Below, in pieces: positions 19,315 through 27,992 of a stretch of DNA of 64,000 bases. Below the pieces are notes generated by a model. The model was not told the DNA's origin. It saw only the letters and a list, made by a program, of their open reading frames with translations, and ran no database searches. Position 1 is the stretch's first letter. Each line of letters starts with the position of its first letter. The translations under genes and the position numbers were made by a program. The stretch is from Gemella sp. zg-570 (lineage in GTDB: Bacteria; Bacillota; Bacilli; Staphylococcales; Gemellaceae), in the NCBI RefSeq assembly GCF_018866345.1, contig NZ_CP076443.1, forward strand, positions 1,387,501 through 1,451,500, written 5' to 3'.

Positions 19315-20037
19315 TTACCTCCAGTTTTTTATTAAATCTAATCTATTTATTAACGAATCAGCTTCTATTTTTTCTTCGTTTACGTTTTTAAAAGTTTCTT
19401 TGATTTTATTCATCATTGAATTTTGAACTGTTGCTTCTTGATAAAGCATACTAACATTTGGAATCTCAATATCCTGAATCTCATCTCGTTTTAAGATAGA
19501 ATCAGCAAAACCAAGTTCAACTGCTTTTCTTGCATCCATCCATGTTTCATTATCCATAAGTTTTGATATTTTGTTTCGTGATAATCCCGTTTTTATTTCA
19601 TAAGCATTAATTATTGATTCTTTAACCTCACTTAACATATCTATAGCTCTTTGCATTTCGCTTGTACTACCATATGCAATTGTCATAGGGTTATGAATCA
19701 TAAGCATTGAAACAGGACTCATAATAACTTCTGTTCCTGCCATAGCAACTACACTCGCAGCACTAGCTGCTATCCCATCAATTTTCACCTTAACATTTCC
19801 TTTGTGTTCCATTAAGAGATTATAAATTTGTGCGGCTGCAATACAGTCTCCACCAGGTGAATTTATCCATACAGTAATATCTCCACTATGTTTAATTAGT
19901 TCTTCTTTAAAAATCTGTGGAGTAACCTCATCATCAAACCACGATTCTTCAGCTATTGTTCCATTTAAAAATAATATGTTCTCTGGTGGTTTATCATTAT
20001 TATTTTGTACTGTCTTCCAATTCCAAAATTTTTTCAT
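19315..20037 (-). CDS. Head maturation protease, ClpP-like
   Basis: A 240-residue S14-family prohead protease. Motifs: VWINSPGGDCIAAAQIYNLL, then KIDGIAASAASVVAMAG with the nucleophile serine, then MLMIHNPMTIAYG with the catalytic histidine. It would cleave the scaffold region of the capsid protein. Its start overlaps the end of the portal gene by 38 bp. Confidence 0.92.
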   Translation of the reverse strand: MKKFWNWKTVQNNNDKPPENILFLNGTIAEESWFDDEVTPQIFKEELIKHSGDITVWINSPGGDCIAAAQIYNLLMEHKGNVKVKIDGIAASAASVVAMAGTEVIMSPVSMLMIHNPMTIAYGSTSEMQRAIDMLSEVKESIINAYEIKTGLSRNKISKLMDNETWMDARKAVELGFADSILKRDEIQDIEIPNVSMLYQEATVQNSMMNKIKETFKNVNEEKIEADSLINRLDLIKNWR

Positions 20038-21265
20038 CTGTGTTTTCCTCCTTATAATCTGTTAATCTCTCTGCATAAGAACCAGCCTTTTTAAGTGGTA
20101 ACATGTTACCATTGACTAGATATAAGTTTCCTCCTTCCTCATCTGATATCAAATCTAAGTTTTCTAAACTCCTTATATCATTAGCACTCATCCAACCATT
20201 CTGACGTGCTGTTGCATATCCATTCATCCTACTTTGATAATCTCCTCTAAGTAGTCCATCAACATTGAATTTTATATAATATTTTTTCTTTTCATCACTT
20301 TTAAGTAATCTCCTAGTCATAGCTTGTTCAAAACGTTTCACCCAAGGATCTAGCGTATATTTAACAAACTCAAGAGATTGTTGTTCAATATTAGAAAAAC
20401 TAGACTTTTCAAGATCACCTACCATGTGTGGAGGAACTCTGAAAATTCTAGCTATCTCATTTATTTGAAATTTTCTTGTTTCTAAAAACTGTGCTTCATT
20501 TGGTGCTATTGAAATAGGAGTATATTTCATACCTTCTTCAAGTATCGCAACTTTATGGTTATTCTTACCTGAAAATCCTCTAGTCCAACTTTTCCTTAAA
20601 ATCTCTGCATTTTTTACTGTACCAGGATGTTCTAATATTCCACTTGGTGTCGCTCCATTAGAAAAAAATTTCGCCCCGTATTCTTCAGCTGCAATAGCCA
20701 TACCAATTGCATTTTTAGCCATAGCTATTGGTGAGTAACCTACTAAGCCATCAAATCCTAATCCTGGTATGTGTAATACGTCTTGTGTGGTTAATTTTAC
20801 TTTTCCATCATTTGTTGTATATTCATAAAAAATTGTATTATTTTCATCTCTATCAACTTTCATTTTATCTGGCATTAGTGGGTAAAGTCCTAAAACATCA
20901 CCTTTCCCATTACGAATAATTTGAGCATATGCATTCCCCCATAATAATAAATGTGTCATTAATGTTTCTCTAAATATAAAACTTGTCATCTCATTGTTAG
21001 GTTCGTTATGGAGTAAGTTATATAAATAGTGGTTGGTTGCTTTTTTACTTCCTAAATCTGTTATTTCGTATATATGTAGTGGTAAACTAGCGAGGGTTTC
21101 TGATAATATTCTCACACATGAATATACAGCTGTCATCTGCATTGCACTTCTTTCTGTTACTCTATTTCCACTAGAACTTCCACCCATAAAAAAACTATAG
21201 GAACTTCCATTTAATCTATTTTTAGGATTATCTCTAGATTTAAATAATTTCATAAAATAATTCAT
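20000..21265 (-). CDS. Phage portal protein (HK97 type)
   Basis: A 421-residue portal with typical segments: TERSAMQMTAVYSCVRILSETLASLPLHIYE, LMTHLLLWGNAYAQIIRNGKGDVLGLYPLMPDKM, NEIARIFRVPPHMVGDLEKSSFSNIEQQSLEFVKYTLDPW. Length is normal for the family. It forms the dodecameric DNA entry ring. A good AGGAGG precedes the chosen start; a second ATG three codons later is possible. Confidence 0.94.
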   Translation of the reverse strand: MNYFMKLFKSRDNPKNRLNGSSYSFFMGGSSSGNRVTERSAMQMTAVYSCVRILSETLASLPLHIYEITDLGSKKATNHYLYNLLHNEPNNEMTSFIFRETLMTHLLLWGNAYAQIIRNGKGDVLGLYPLMPDKMKVDRDENNTIFYEYTTNDGKVKLTTQDVLHIPGLGFDGLVGYSPIAMAKNAIGMAIAAEEYGAKFFSNGATPSGILEHPGTVKNAEILRKSWTRGFSGKNNHKVAILEEGMKYTPISIAPNEAQFLETRKFQINEIARIFRVPPHMVGDLEKSSFSNIEQQSLEFVKYTLDPWVKRFEQAMTRRLLKSDEKKKYYIKFNVDGLLRGDYQSRMNGYATARQNGWMSANDIRSLENLDLISDEEGGNLYLVNGNMLPLKKAGSYAERLTDYKEENTDEKILELEDSTK

Positions 21266-21290
21266 ACATACCTCCTAAATTTGAATACTA

Positions 21291-21315
21291 AAAAAGCACC
21301 TCTAATGAGATGCTT
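21291..21315 (-). terminator. Terminator after the moron cassette
   Basis: Stem AAGCATCTC with GAGGTGCTT (one G-U), loop ATTA, then TTTTTT on the minus strand. It closes the two-gene cassette lying between the large terminase and portal genes. Confidence 0.8.
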
Positions 21316-21338
21316 AATGCTGACCTTATGATATTATA

Positions 21339-22247
21339 CTACTTTTTACTTAAAGTTTCGTTGAAAATCTTTTCAAATTCTTTGTCAGTTAGTTTATCGT
21401 TATTCTTACATATATATTTCCCAACAAAACCACTTTGTCTATCATACTCTTGTTCGCTAATAGTTAAGAAAAATTCTTGATGAAATTTTTTTATTAATTC
21501 ATCACATTCATTTTTGTTGAATTTCAAATATAATAATAAAACATTTCGAATAGAAGGTAGCCATGCAGTATTAAATCTTCTAAAAATAAATATAGGTTTT
21601 ACTTCTCCTTTTCCTTCTTCCTTATCTTTCTTCTCTAAATATTTGACAATACGCCAAATAATTATCCTTGCACTTAACATACCAACCTTTGTATTTGATG
21701 AAACGATATGATTTGTAAAACTAGATTTCTTACTTTTCGTAAAACCTGGATTCTTACTTCTAAAAGGAAAAGCTTCAAGATTAACAATTAACTTAGACAT
21801 ATCCTTTAACTTTTCCCACTCTTCATCATTCAAATTACTTATAAATTTTTGTACAGGTATTTGCTTTTTCTCTAAGTAATTAAAACAAACATGCGAAAAA
21901 TAATGTGATAAGTAATATGCGTCTTCTTTTGAACAAGTACTCTTTATCTTTTCTAATTCTTGATATAGAATGCTACTTTCGGTTTCGATATTTATAATAT
22001 GATCTTTTATATATTTTTTTAAATATTCTTCTTTTTCTCCAAGAATATTTAACGAACTATCTTCACTATTAATTTCTTTTGCTTCATTAAAATAGGAATA
22101 TGCACCTACCTCTCTTTTTTTATCCTTTAGTGGAATATTTGGATTTACTAAACATAAAAATAATGTTACTATATCAATATTACCTCGAACATGATTTGGT
22201 ATACCATAGTGAAGATTTTTATATTGATTAGACTCTAATTCACACAA
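21339..22247 (-). CDS. Unidentified 302-residue protein in a moron cassette
   Basis: I do not recognise this protein. It has an N-terminal segment YGIPNHVRGNIDIVTLFLCLVNPN, a charged middle, and a C-terminal helical part (EKIFNETLSKK). No catalytic motif or membrane helix is clear. It sits with a 60-residue partner in the packaging module between the terminase and portal genes, where siphoviruses normally have no extra genes. A promoter-like AT-rich stretch precedes the pair and a terminator follows, the classic form of a moron. Such genes often encode superinfection exclusion or anti-phage functions, but here that is only inferred. Confidence 0.6.
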   Translation of the reverse strand: MCELESNQYKNLHYGIPNHVRGNIDIVTLFLCLVNPNIPLKDKKREVGAYSYFNEAKEINSEDSSLNILGEKEEYLKKYIKDHIINIETESSILYQELEKIKSTCSKEDAYYLSHYFSHVCFNYLEKKQIPVQKFISNLNDEEWEKLKDMSKLIVNLEAFPFRSKNPGFTKSKKSSFTNHIVSSNTKVGMLSARIIIWRIVKYLEKKDKEEGKGEVKPIFIFRRFNTAWLPSIRNVLLLYLKFNKNECDELIKKFHQEFFLTISEQEYDRQSGFVGKYICKNNDKLTDKEFEKIFNETLSKK

Positions 22248-22253
22248 TCCTTC

Positions 22254-22436
22254 CTATATATTTAACCATGAAAAGTCTCGATAATCATTTTCTAGGTCAT
22301 CTATGAACTTCAAAGACAAGTCTTTCACTTTTTCTGAAGTCCATGGGTTATACTCTTCTATTTTCAATAATTCATCAAAATCTTTAATTTCTCCGACATT
22401 TTCTTTATACTTAGAAATTAGTTTATTAAAAGACAT
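22254..22436 (-). CDS. Small unidentified protein paired with the 302-residue moron
   Basis: A 60-residue acidic protein (SFNKLISKYKENVGEIKDFDELLKIEEYNPWTSEKV). The next gene starts six bases after its stop, so the two are co-translated. A good GGAGGA site precedes the ATG. The 49-bp gap to the terminase stop has TTATATTTTATATAAAAT, a plausible -10 region. Role unknown; it could be an antitoxin or a regulatory partner. Confidence 0.5.
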   Translation of the reverse strand: MSFNKLISKYKENVGEIKDFDELLKIEEYNPWTSEKVKDLSLKFIDDLENDYRDFSWLNI

Positions 22437-22485
22437 AATCTTTCCTCCAAATTAATTTTATATAAAATATAACATAAAACTAAAA

Positions 22486-24075
22486 CTAAATAAATAACAA
22501 GCCTCTGTCATTATAAACACTTTCTGTATTTTGATTTCCACATCTTATCGCACGATCCAATGCCATAATAGTCGCAATCGCACCGTCAATCTTTTCTGTT
22601 GATTTTTCCTTATCTGCTTTGATATTTCCTGCTGGGTCTGTTCGAATAAAAATGTTATCCATATTCCATCTTAAAACAGGATTCCCCCCATGAGCTATCT
22701 TTTGTTCAAGTGTGAGCTTCATCAATTCTTTAGTGGGTGGGCTCATATCTTTAAATCCCTGTCCAAAAGGTACAACGGTAAATCCCATACTCTCTAAATT
22801 CTGTACCATTTGAACGGCTCCCCAGCGATCAAAGGCAATTTCTTTAATGTTAAATATTTGACCTAATCGTTCAATAAATTTTTCAATATGACCGTAATGC
22901 ACGACATTCCCTTCTGTCGTTTCAACATACCCCTGTTTCTCCCATAAATCATACGGCACATGATCACGTCTAACTCTTAACGGAATGGTATCTTCGGGTA
23001 ACCAAAAGTATGGTAGTATCACATATTTATCGTCTTCATCTTCTGGTGGAAAGACTAATACAAACGCAGTCAAGTCAGTTGTAGAAGATAAGTCTAAGCC
23101 TCCATAACACACTCGTCCTTCAAGGTCTGCTTCATTGACGTTAAACGCACACGCATCCCACTTTTCAATCGGCATCCAACGGACTGCTTGTTTTACCCAT
23201 TGATTGAGTCTTAATTGTCTAAAGGCATTCTCTTCTCCTGGATTTTGTTTAGCCGATTCACAAGCCATTTTGACTTTTTCAATGGGTACAGTAACTCCTA
23301 ATGATGGATTGGCTTTATGCCACACCTTTGGATCTGTCCAATCATCACTCTCGTCTGCCCCATAAATGACAGGATAAAAAGTAGGGTCGACTTTCCGTCC
23401 GTCTAAGATGTCCTTTGCTTTTTGATGCGTTTCAAAACAAATCGAATGGGTATCTGTACCAGCTGTGGTAATCAAAAAATACAAAGGTTGCGTCCGTGCA
23501 TCTCCACTCCCTTTGGTCATGACGTCAAAGAGTTTTCTGTTGGGCTGTGTATGCAATTCATCAAACACCACACCGTGGATATTAAAACCATGCTTGGAGT
23601 AAGCCTCAGCTGATAAGACTTGATAAAAACTGTTGGTTGGTAAATACACAAGTCGTTTTTGTGAGGCTAAAATCTTCACACGTTTATTTAAAGCAGGACA
23701 CATTCGTACCATATCTGCTGCTACTTCAAAGACAATACTTGCTTGTTGTCGGTCTGCTGCACAACCATAGACTTCTGCACGTTCCTCAAAGTCCCCACAA
23801 CAAAGTAATAATGCAACAGCAGCCGCTAACTCACTCTTACCCATCTTTTTAGGGATTTCAATGTAGGCCGTGTTAAACTGTCGATACCCATCTGGTTTAA
23901 CAATGCCAAACAAGTCACGGATAATTTGTTCTTGCCATTGAAGAAGTTTGAATGGCTTCCCTGCCCATGTGCCTTTAGTATGCGATAGACATTCAATAAA
24001 ATTGACGGCATAGTCAGCAAACTCTTTATTATAGGTTGATGTCTTTAATTTAAACGGACTTGGTTTATAGGTCAT
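22486..24075 (-). CDS. Terminase large subunit
   Basis: A phage terminase of about 529 residues from the ATG at 24,075, chosen because GGGAGGA precedes it at the right distance. The ATPase half shows YIEIPKKMGKSELAAAVALLL (Walker A-like) and GVVFDELHTQPNRKLFDVM (Walker B-like). The nuclease half has CYGGLDLSSTTDLTAFVLV and EIAFDRWGAVQMVQNLESMGF with conserved acidic residues. It packages DNA into the prohead. The protein has a pronounced HK97/P27-type relation with the small subunit upstream, which however lies 4.7 kb away behind the methylation genes. Confidence 0.95.
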   Translation of the reverse strand: MTYKPSPFKLKTSTYNKEFADYAVNFIECLSHTKGTWAGKPFKLLQWQEQIIRDLFGIVKPDGYRQFNTAYIEIPKKMGKSELAAAVALLLCCGDFEERAEVYGCAADRQQASIVFEVAADMVRMCPALNKRVKILASQKRLVYLPTNSFYQVLSAEAYSKHGFNIHGVVFDELHTQPNRKLFDVMTKGSGDARTQPLYFLITTAGTDTHSICFETHQKAKDILDGRKVDPTFYPVIYGADESDDWTDPKVWHKANPSLGVTVPIEKVKMACESAKQNPGEENAFRQLRLNQWVKQAVRWMPIEKWDACAFNVNEADLEGRVCYGGLDLSSTTDLTAFVLVFPPEDEDDKYVILPYFWLPEDTIPLRVRRDHVPYDLWEKQGYVETTEGNVVHYGHIEKFIERLGQIFNIKEIAFDRWGAVQMVQNLESMGFTVVPFGQGFKDMSPPTKELMKLTLEQKIAHGGNPVLRWNMDNIFIRTDPAGNIKADKEKSTEKIDGAIATIMALDRAIRCGNQNTESVYNDRGLLFI

Positions 24076-24110
24076 GTTCTGTCCTCCCAACAAAAAAGGA
24101 GCCAATGCTC

Positions 24111-25280: not shown

Positions 25281-25319
25281 TTACACTATATATCACTCTA
25301 AACCGATTATTTATCAAGT
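25281..25319 (-). promoter_or_regulatory. Family-2 39-bp promoter-like box, copy 4
   Basis: Same elements as copies 2 and 3: ACTTGATAAATA, then TTTAGAGTGATATATAGTGT. The box starts at the last base of the upstream methylase stop codon, so it uses essentially all of the short gap before the next gene. Confidence 0.6.
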
Positions 25320-26758
25320 CATTTGTTCGCTATTTCGAAGATTTTTTTCATCAGATAAACGACACATGGAAGGGCGACACCGTTTCCCCACATTTTATAC
25401 TGAGCCGTATCCGAATATGGATTGGATAGCCATTTTTTAATTTGTTTATCAGACTTCGATTTGCTTTTGCCATTGATGAGTCGATGTTCTTCAAAGACAG
25501 CTCTCCAAAGCCGTATATTTTTTTCACTAGGTTCTAGAACCGCTAAATCCTTACACCAGTCATCTGGAAAGCCTTGTAATCGACCACACTCTAATGGTGT
25601 TAATCTACGAACCTTTAAGTTTCTTTCCATGACGGTTGGTGGATCTTTATAATCACTTGCCACAAGCGTCCCAACTTCATTCACATTAGCGATTGTATGG
25701 TGTGAGTTTTTACTGGTGGAATACACCACAGCTAATCCACCTTGATTTCTGTCTAGATTGTTGCCTCCAGTATCAATCGTTCTTGAGGTATCTGTTTCGT
25801 AAATAGTCGCCCTGACATTGCGTGTGTTTTCGCTTGTCAAACGAATGTCGTAAGTTTTGGCATCCACTACCAATGGTTGATTATTGTCCCCTAAACCAAG
25901 GTTTGCCCCCAATGTTGGGGATACGTCAAGTGGTCCATTAAATCGACTATCTTGTCCGTGATTTTCAAACACATACGGGGCTCGATTCCCTTTGGCACGA
26001 AGTGTGGCTGTGAAATCTTCGGTCACGTCCATACGCTCTCCACCTTGGTCGTTTAAGCACAACGTAGTGCGTCTTCCAATTCTTTTGGTAGTTGTTTTCC
26101 TCTCATCTGAGCTCGTTTCAATATTCCTTGGCACGCTTTTTTCGTCAAATAATATTTCACTGGCACTTCTGCCATTAAAATCTGCGACAAGAAAGATTCT
26201 TTTGCGTCTTTGGGGGACTCCAAAATACCGAGCGTCCAACACTCGCCATGCAAGAGAGAATGCTCCACCCATGATGTCGCCACTGTTTTCCCATTTTGAA
26301 GGTCTAGGGATAGATGTCTGTATGTCTTTGATGTGGCAGATGGCTTCAAGGACACATCTGAAATCTTCTCCTTTGTTGCTTGAGAAGGCACCTGGGACAT
26401 TTTCCCAGATGATAAATCGTGGATAGTTACCATTTGTTTCCTTCCTCATTTCTTTAATTACTCGAATCGCTTCATAAAAAAGGTTAGACCGTTTACCGTC
26501 CAACCCTTGTCTTTTGCCTGCTATAGATAAATCTTGACAAGGACTACCAAAAGTAATGATATCTACTGGTGGTATTCTTTTGCCGTTGATATGTTGAATA
26601 TTGCCTAATTGTTTGACTTCTGGGAAATTCTTCCTAGTGACAAGCACAGGAAACGGTTCGACTTCTGAATTCCAAATCGGTGTAATACCAGACAATTTTG
26701 AAGCGAGTTCAAAACCTCCTGACCCTGAAAACAAACTTCCCATTGTTAGCTTACGCAT
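25319..26758 (-). CDS. Phage C5-cytosine DNA methyltransferase
   Basis: About 479 residues from ATG at 26,758 (AGGTG lies 8 bases upstream). Motifs of the m5C family are in order: motif I GSLFSGSGGFELAS, motif IV FGSPCQDLS with the catalytic cysteine, motif VI FIIWENVPGA, motif VIII VPQRRKRIFLVA, motif X MWGNGVALPCVV at the end. The target domain between VIII and IX (about residues 210-370) determines the sequence methylated. It overlaps the ParB-methylase stop and lies after an AdoMet synthetase, suggesting a phage methylation cassette to protect its DNA against restriction. Confidence 0.93.
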   Translation of the reverse strand: MRKLTMGSLFSGSGGFELASKLSGITPIWNSEVEPFPVLVTRKNFPEVKQLGNIQHINGKRIPPVDIITFGSPCQDLSIAGKRQGLDGKRSNLFYEAIRVIKEMRKETNGNYPRFIIWENVPGAFSSNKGEDFRCVLEAICHIKDIQTSIPRPSKWENSGDIMGGAFSLAWRVLDARYFGVPQRRKRIFLVADFNGRSASEILFDEKSVPRNIETSSDERKTTTKRIGRRTTLCLNDQGGERMDVTEDFTATLRAKGNRAPYVFENHGQDSRFNGPLDVSPTLGANLGLGDNNQPLVVDAKTYDIRLTSENTRNVRATIYETDTSRTIDTGGNNLDRNQGGLAVVYSTSKNSHHTIANVNEVGTLVASDYKDPPTVMERNLKVRRLTPLECGRLQGFPDDWCKDLAVLEPSEKNIRLWRAVFEEHRLINGKSKSKSDKQIKKWLSNPYSDTAQYKMWGNGVALPCVVYLMKKIFEIANK

Positions 26759-27992
26759 TTTCATCACCTACTAAATCATCGTATGATACTTTCTTATTAT
26801 CACGGACGACATACACATCATCCGACTTTCCGACTTGTTCGATATATCGTTTTACAATCACATCACAAAATTTTTCATCAAGTTCAATGGAATAACAGAT
26901 TCTACCCAGTTGATCACTCGCCAGTAAAGTAGAGCCACTACCACCAAACATATCTAACACGACACTATTGGTCATACTTGAATTTTTAATCGGATAAGCC
27001 ATCAACTCGATGGGTTTCATCGTTGGATGATCTGCATTTTTCTTTGGTTTATCAAACTCCCAAATCGTGGATTCTTTTCTACCGGTATACCATTGATGTT
27101 TACCTTTTTGTTTCCAACCAAACAAAATGGGTTCATGTTGCCACTGATAAGGGCTTCGCCCCAAAACAAGTGACTGTTTTTTCCAAATACACGTCCCTGA
27201 TAAATAAAATCCTGCATCTTTAAATGCTTTTCTGAAATTGTAGCCTTCCGTATTCGCATGGAACACATAGATACTTGCATCTTGTGCCATGACCTTTTCA
27301 GCTTGCGTAAAAGCATCACACAAGAACTGATAAAACGCTCCATCTTCCATATCATCGTTTTTAATTTTTCCTGCACTACCTTCATAGTTCACATTATAAG
27401 GCGGATCAGTTACCACTAGATTGACTTTAGTATCTCCGAGTAACTTTTTATAAGTTTCTTCTTTGGTAGAATCACCACAAATTAACATATGTTTGCCTAA
27501 ATGCCAAATGTCACCGAATTGTGTGATCGTTGGTTTCGTTAACTCGTCATTGACATCAAAGTCATATTCTTGAGTCTCTTTGTCATCATCAAACAGTTTG
27601 GATAATTCTTTATCATCAAATCCAAGTAAGTCTAAATCAAAGTCTAACCCTTGTAATTCTGATAACTCAATGGTTAATAGGTCATTATCCCACCCAGCGT
27701 TAAGTGCTAGTTTATTATCTGCGATAATATAGGCTTTCTTTTGTGCTTCCGTTAGATGTTCCTCTTTTATACATGGTATCTTTTCAAGACCTAACTTTTG
27801 TGCGGCATAATAACGACCGTGTCCACAGAGAATTGTGTGATCACGTGATACAATAATTGGATTAAGAAACCCAAACTCTTTTATGCTGGAAGCAATTTGT
27901 GCAATTTGAGTATCTGAATGCGTCCTTGCATTGTTCGCATAAGGGATAAGGTCATGAATATTAGCTAAATAATAGGTTGCTTCTTTGTTCAT
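26751..27992 (-). CDS. ParB-domain DNA methyltransferase (N6-adenine or N4-cytosine)
   Basis: A 413-residue fusion. Residues 1-110 are a ParB/Srx-like domain (IHDLIPYANNARTHSDTQIAQIASSIKEFGFLNPIIVSRDHTILCGHGRYYAAQKLGLEKIPC). Residues about 190-400 are a beta-class methyltransferase with NLVVTDPPYNVNYEG (motif IV) and VVLDMFGGSGSTLLASDQLGR (motif I). This fusion is frequent in Firmicutes siphoviruses. It methylates phage DNA at an unknown site; the DPPY motif suggests N6-adenine. Confidence 0.92.
   Translation of the reverse strand: MNKEATYYLANIHDLIPYANNARTHSDTQIAQIASSIKEFGFLNPIIVSRDHTILCGHGRYYAAQKLGLEKIPCIKEEHLTEAQKKAYIIADNKLALNAGWDNDLLTIELSELQGLDFDLDLLGFDDKELSKLFDDDKETQEYDFDVNDELTKPTITQFGDIWHLGKHMLICGDSTKEETYKKLLGDTKVNLVVTDPPYNVNYEGSAGKIKNDDMEDGAFYQFLCDAFTQAEKVMAQDASIYVFHANTEGYNFRKAFKDAGFYLSGTCIWKKQSLVLGRSPYQWQHEPILFGWKQKGKHQWYTGRKESTIWEFDKPKKNADHPTMKPIELMAYPIKNSSMTNSVVLDMFGGSGSTLLASDQLGRICYSIELDEKFCDVIVKRYIEQVGKSDDVYVVRDNKKVSYDDLVGDENA

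Follow-up and report, generated by a model that had tools for sequence, protein, structure and literature searches.

The morons of lambdoid phages are extra genes with their own terminator that lie between conserved genes and are absent in relatives. Glycosylases of the TDG and SMUG1 types carry an NPG-type motif. Hotspots in P2-like and P4-like prophages are described by Rousset et al. 2022 (PMC9122126) as small loci, flanked on either side by a conserved phage gene, whose content turns over rapidly and is rich in defence genes; the site in P2, like the one studied here, adjoins the portal gene. Defence by removal of bases has been described for restriction glycosylases as well as for the Brig proteins. 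The authors of the Brig papers (PMC11078745, PMC13160076) place Brig1 and Brig3 in the UDG superfamily and attribute defence to the removal of modified bases. There, the best structural match of Brig1 is a uracil DNA glycosylase with a Dali Z of 9.2 (PMC11078745), and the core of Brig3 is likened to AAG (PMC13160076).

We analysed an insert that separates the terminase gene from the portal gene of a temperate phage in the window, i.e., the whole 64-kb stretch of DNA (Table 1). The slot that holds this insert resembles the P2/P4 hotspots in turning over unrelated genes between two conserved phage genes. In contrast to them, it lies between terminase and portal, the relatives listed for its phages are from Streptococcus, gut Firmicutes and others, and many of its same-strand cargos share a hairpin terminator. 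As in the lambdoid morons, the window holds an extra gene with a terminator between conserved genes, absent in relatives, but its best promoter-like site is no better than those of shuffled sequences. The insert is best explained as a cassette of exchangeable cargo, placed in a hotspot of the defence type. We put at roughly one half the probability that the protein family of this cargo has a glycosylase-like fold and, in intact relatives, protects the host by acting on phage DNA bases, with the window copy itself probably inactive.

Table 1. Features of the terminase-portal junction in the window and of related loci
Feature	Position	Strand	Basis or remark
Portal gene (downstream flank)	20000..21265	-	Relatives annotated portal protein
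Cargo insert, terminase stop to portal start, 1220 nt	21266..22485	-	Junction measurement
Terminator-like hairpin, GCATCTC-loop-GAGGTGC then T	21291..21315	-	Sequence; type common to unrelated cargos at the junction
Single broken gene, 365 codons and stop, unnamed protein family	21339..22436	-	Aligns with intact relatives
302-aa ORF, remainder of the broken gene	21339..22247	-	TTG start, poorly spaced start site
Codons 92-100, predicted strand and Asn98-Pro99 motif	22137..22163	-	Model, 18-member alignment
In-frame TAG breaking the cargo gene at codon 61	22254..22256	-	Frame; profile alignment
60-aa ORF, N-terminal part of the broken gene, holding W32 and F55-S56-W57	22254..22436	-	Frame, conservation
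Terminase large subunit gene (upstream flank)	22486..24105	-	Matching genes so annotated in phage records
Clp-type ATPase beside family member	L020 8870-11515; L027 from 2594; L036 6138-8795; L037 6151-8808
S. simulans allele swap site	L014 7829-9174; same site in L021		Flank and gene comparison

An exchangeable slot with a shared hairpin

Related junctions were surveyed by tblastn with the terminase and portal of the window. Of 95 portal loci, four without a terminase in view and two that repeat the window and G008 places (L028, L029) were set aside, which left 89 junctions; this count keeps duplicates, and 80 of the loci were taken from viral contigs as the nearest relatives of the portal. 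The distance between terminase and portal was ≤25 nt in 43 junctions, which thus lack the insert as is expected of a moron, 26-150 nt in 12 and >150 nt in 34. The inserts of >150 nt, together with that of a second prophage in the window's own genome, fell into 17 DNA clusters. Ten cargo proteins were assigned to families, namely RelB, ParE (twice), ToxN, Fic (twice), MerR-TipAS, AAA_14-DUF4143 and HigB, and one of the Fic cargos adjoins a Phd-like antitoxin that scored under its cut-off. An Rfam scan of five junction loci gave no match. The terminase-portal junction is therefore an exchangeable cargo slot. A slot of this kind was not found described at the level of titles and abstracts, nor was defence by a glycosylase with a Clp protein.

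The hairpin of the window (21315-21294, minus strand) consists of 9 pairs followed by a T-rich tail and resembles an intrinsic terminator. The terminator postulated in the earlier note is thus present before the portal, at least as a terminator-like sequence. Similar structures were found in the last 150 nt before the portal in 17 of 33 inserts of ≥300 nt, compared to 0.8 expected from shuffles, which permuted non-overlapping pairs of letters and are a rough control here and in the promoter scan below. With the exception of the hairpin of L110, which is of another type, these hairpins and that of L035, missed by the scan, are variants of GCATCT...AGGTGC followed by T, although the cargos are unrelated. 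One inner pair varies between C-G, A-U and, once, G-C (pairs were tallied per hairpin, since MAFFT left the 5' arms unaligned), and this variation speaks for selection on pairing in these sequences. When the surveyed loci were searched with a regular expression, the hairpin appeared only directly before the portal at cargo-bearing junctions, in 17 rows that list some places twice. The opposite-strand cargos L069 and L105 have no hairpin, and neither do some same-strand inserts, e.g., L062 and the L078 group. Conversely, a similar hairpin stands in L090, where there is no cargo. We infer that the hairpin would keep transcription of the cargo out of the late operon.

The members of the L078 group (L078, L080, L081, L085 and L115) carry inserts of 788-789 nt, which by eye open with a PAPS-reductase-type frame running towards the portal. 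A gene of this type also stands in two phage records under the portal match.

Viral contigs, some of which were already in the survey, were then scanned for two exact forms of the hairpin drawn from these junctions, without any portal sequence. The two forms gave 106 and 3 stretches. A relative of the window's portal begins 21-35 nt past the hairpin in 51 of 110 hairpin places; in the other 59, other genes or none were found downstream, and the hairpin is thus not unique to the slot. A terminase was in view at 46 of the 51 portal-side places. At 42 of these 46 junctions the insert was >150 nt, compared to 34 of the 89 junctions surveyed independently of the hairpin, and 4 held ≤150 nt. By eye, the hairpin was also seen just before holin-like, scaffold-like and small-terminase-like ORFs (in places among L188-L293), where it perhaps marks further cargo slots.

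From the hairpin-found junctions, 60 distinct cargo ORFs were called mechanically. They matched 29 Pfam families, with at least half of the ORFs lacking a Pfam match at E 1e-4, and 49 PADLOC families (several per protein) with a best E of 1.3e-190; SoFic, AbiU, HEC-05 and several PDC candidates were among the matches listed. As a control, 59 downstream ORFs of the same loci, from which one ORF that was itself cargo had been removed, matched 9 PADLOC families, each in a single member, with a best E of 3.8e-10. Matches to defence models in the cargo thus exceed the background of the same loci. Some cargo is not defence-like, e.g., nucleotidyltransferases similar to drug-resistance enzymes; by their Pfam names, and with the loci read by eye, those of L253, L266 and L232 look related to lincosamide or aminoglycoside resistance enzymes. 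The earlier note had seen the insert as a moron with a plausible anti-phage or exclusion function. The compared sequences support a moron and make an anti-phage role likely, as many relatives have nothing at the junction and the changing cargo of the others comprises toxin-antitoxin genes along with proteins that match defence models. The slot thus offers a simple search for new defence genes, in the interval from terminase to portal on the upstream side of a hairpin that can be recognised.

Exchange of the cassette was examined by comparison with G008, a genome of the same bacterial family, in 150-nt bins. The identity was 92-99% over the cassette and the 5' end of the portal, 72-79% over most of the compared part of the terminase, and 64-85% further into the portal, with the outermost bins being the ends of the alignment. 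Over 2402 bp, starting at 21246 and going down, the second prophage in the window's own genome is 98.75% identical to the window, but it carries RelB-ParE as cargo instead. The identity pattern and this replacement of cargo together indicate that cassettes are exchanged by recombination in the flanks. In the second prophage (L034 / L185, G000:C1 near 426000), only the last part of the terminase stands beside the cargo, with 85 nt matched, and this terminase end adjoins, by eye, a serine-recombinase-like ORF. Its packaging gene thus looks disrupted.

The proposal that the cassette has its own promoter was not supported. A scan for the promoter consensus between 20000 and 24000 gave 16 sites on both strands, compared to 18.2 expected; no minus-strand site lay upstream of 22436. 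The best promoter-like site in the 124 nt upstream of the cargo gene scored 8 of 12, which was reached by 87.5% of the shuffles. Among 14 other cargos scanned in this way, eight scored 10-11 of 12.

A single broken gene of a patchy family

The ORFs of 60 and 302 residues that the earlier note had described are present on the minus strand between terminase and portal, but they are not two genes. Both lie in one frame, with 63 codons from 22436 to 22247, and are separated only by the TAG and two sense codons. The TTG start of the 302-aa ORF lies one nucleotide past GGAAGG, which is a poor spacing. G008 has a 93-94% identical copy at the same junction, with the same gap of 1220 nt in its loci as in the window's own locus (L028), and this copy is one intact ORF of 365 aa. 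Read without the internal stop, the window gene aligns end to end with intact relatives, and the family profile spans the whole copy, reporting 1 internal TAG. The 60-aa part contains W32, F55, S56 and W57, each conserved in no fewer than 88% of the 18 members aligned. The single ORF in G008, the shared frame and the conserved residues in both parts therefore identify the insert as one broken gene. Two ORFs that are open in the sequence would fit a two-gene toxin-antitoxin or exclusion pair, but this is hardly credible given that intact relatives have one ORF over both parts.

Because the in-frame TAG cuts the gene, the window copy is probably inactive; with regard to amber suppression, no tRNA gene was found within the window. 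Compared to G008, amino-acid changes affect 9 of 60 codons before the stop and 17 of 304 in the rest (p 0.023). This excess of changes before the stop, together with the stop itself, would be expected of a neutral or decaying passenger, with no present role in the prophage and the stop marking the decay of a once useful gene. The copies of G009, whose frame shifts close to a stretch of A, and of Limosilactobacillus fermentum are also broken, so that 3 of the 20 distinct places examined have a broken frame. We nevertheless consider such a passenger unlikely, as the G008 copy is intact in the same slot, 17 of the 20 places have no internal stop or shift (the L020 member is ~70 residues shorter), and the cassette has been kept whole with its terminator.

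The two ORFs gave nothing significant against Pfam, PHROGs, NCBIfam and PADLOC (best E 0.017). Nine members searched together against Pfam and PADLOC did little better, with the best match to a Cmr5 model at E 0.0012 in one member, and sequence searches of the PDB gave nothing credible (best E 0.0072, to a helix region of plexin). The family is therefore undescribed by these models, and it occurs patchily, in Staphylococcus and on plasmids. A search of 157 genomes of the order gave 11 with a hit, one of them to an unrelated protein. Among 398 genomes sampled across the class, 6 carried a member, counting that of the window, and these represent three of 146 genera. The unrelated candidate (L013, E 3.3e-4) was rejected as a member because it is a 630-aa peptide-binding-like ORF. 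Members were also found in eight named Staphylococcus contigs, some being the same sequences, and in three Staphylococcus plasmid records, two of which were read (L036, L037), while the broken L. fermentum copy lies on a plasmid. A pattern scan of viral contigs gave candidates, none of which was confirmed by tblastn.

This distribution bears on the possibility that the gene encodes a virion protein with an accessory role in packaging or in the head, to which its location within the packaging-head module would point. We regard this as very improbable, since 55 of the 89 related junctions hold ≤150 nt, the other inserts examined are unrelated, and no tblastn match to the family was found in 50,697 phage records. 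The homologues on staphylococcal chromosomes and plasmids likewise argue against a virion part, in agreement with the earlier remark that neither protein resembles a virion component.

In two S. simulans strains, flanks of 7.7 and 3.2 kb are 95% identical, whereas the family members between them are just 22% identical, as is seen where an accessory gene undergoes rapid exchange. Eight Staphylococcus chromosomal loci had ordinary neighbours by eye and no clear defence islands, with the exception of a Clp-like ATPase in L020. A Clp-type (ClpB-like) ATPase lies directly downstream of the family member in L020, L027, L036 and L037; it was recognised by Pfam in L020 and L036, by annotation in L037 and by eye in L027. 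This neighbour suggests a two-gene system with the family member.

Likeness to DNA glycosylases

The model of the window protein, read through the stop, was poor (pLDDT 51.8). A uracil-DNA glycosylase nevertheless ranked first among its structural matches (Z 4.8, 153 residues aligned), tied with NADP-binding reductase domains at Z 4.6, values that chance can produce, as can any structural Z below 5. A relative, L018, modelled from an alignment of nine sequences, gave a confident model (pLDDT 81.0, pTM 0.85), and its first 18 structural matches were all SMUG1 or TDG, with Z from 4.6 (164 residues, rmsd 4.7) down to 2.8, also within the range of chance. The next match after the glycosylases had a Z of 2.4, which is as high as reductase-type matches reach. 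The structural match of the family is thus weaker than that of Brig1 (Z 4.6 compared to the reported Dali Z of 9.2). Foldseek comparison of the models with the PDB and with viral models gave no match under E 1 and no Brig entry among its rows.

Comparison of the family with UDG and Mug profiles gave no significant score, and there was no match to the Pfam UDG model. The best local alignments, although non-significant, fell on an Asn-Pro motif for the whole family under one setting and on the second-to-third strand for subfamily 2; under another setting the best local alignment fell elsewhere, on an unrelated stretch. In the alignment, Asn and Pro of this motif, which follows the first core strand, are present in all 18 members. 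We liken Asn98-Pro99 to the NPG motif of the Mug, TDG and SMUG1 glycosylases, in which case its Asn would be the catalytic one. The conserved blocks appear in the order of strand and Asn-Pro, N.E..P.RS, FIFRR/VILRS...W, and a terminal S-rich stretch, in keeping with a TDG-like core.

The family thus shares with TDG, SMUG1 and Mug the best structural matches of the confident model and a similar order of elements, from the strand with Asn-Pro through a second strand with conserved N...P and a third strand to the S-rich stretch at the end. It differs from them in having no HPS motif, no significant Mug profile score and a helical insertion of ~100 residues between the first two core strands. The long helical insertion also sets it apart from Brig, as does the ClpB-like ATPase next to some members. 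Because the Z values are weak and no profile score is significant, we describe the protein as one that looks like a glycosylase and not as one that is a glycosylase. Its most likely fold, as judged from the models, would be of the uracil/thymine-DNA-glycosylase type with a helical insertion. By analogy with the Brig glycosylases, intact relatives would most likely protect the host by detecting or excising unusual bases when phage DNA enters the cell. Should the predicted fold be correct, base-removing defence would gain a further branch in this family, so far mainly staphylococcal.

In the same slot, the protein could also be an effector of the toxin-like or abortive-infection type, built on a different Rossmann-like fold and acting on RNA, nucleotides or proteins instead of excising bases. 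This is a possible but doubtful explanation. Much of the identifiable cargo is of toxin-antitoxin or abortive type, the structural match to glycosylases is weak, the window model fits reductase domains nearly as well, and an ATPase adjoins four relatives. It is countered by the confident model, in which glycosylases take all of the first 18 ranks and reductase-type matches stay at or below Z 2.4, and by the invariant Asn-Pro motif. The glycosylase-like reading could be extended to a new family of defence DNA glycosylases of phages, plasmids and chromosomes, with a TDG/SMUG1-like core and the helical insertion as sensor, part of which works with a ClpB-like ATPase partner, while the shared hairpin terminator serves as a landing scaffold for the exchange of defence genes that leaves the late operon undisturbed. 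We offer this extension only tentatively, the odds being clearly against it as a whole. Both slot and family merit further study, even though the window copy is probably dead.

Two DNA methyltransferase-like genes lie upstream of the terminase in the window (25319-26767 and 26751-27992), and related phages have annotated cytosine and adenine methyltransferases near the same place.
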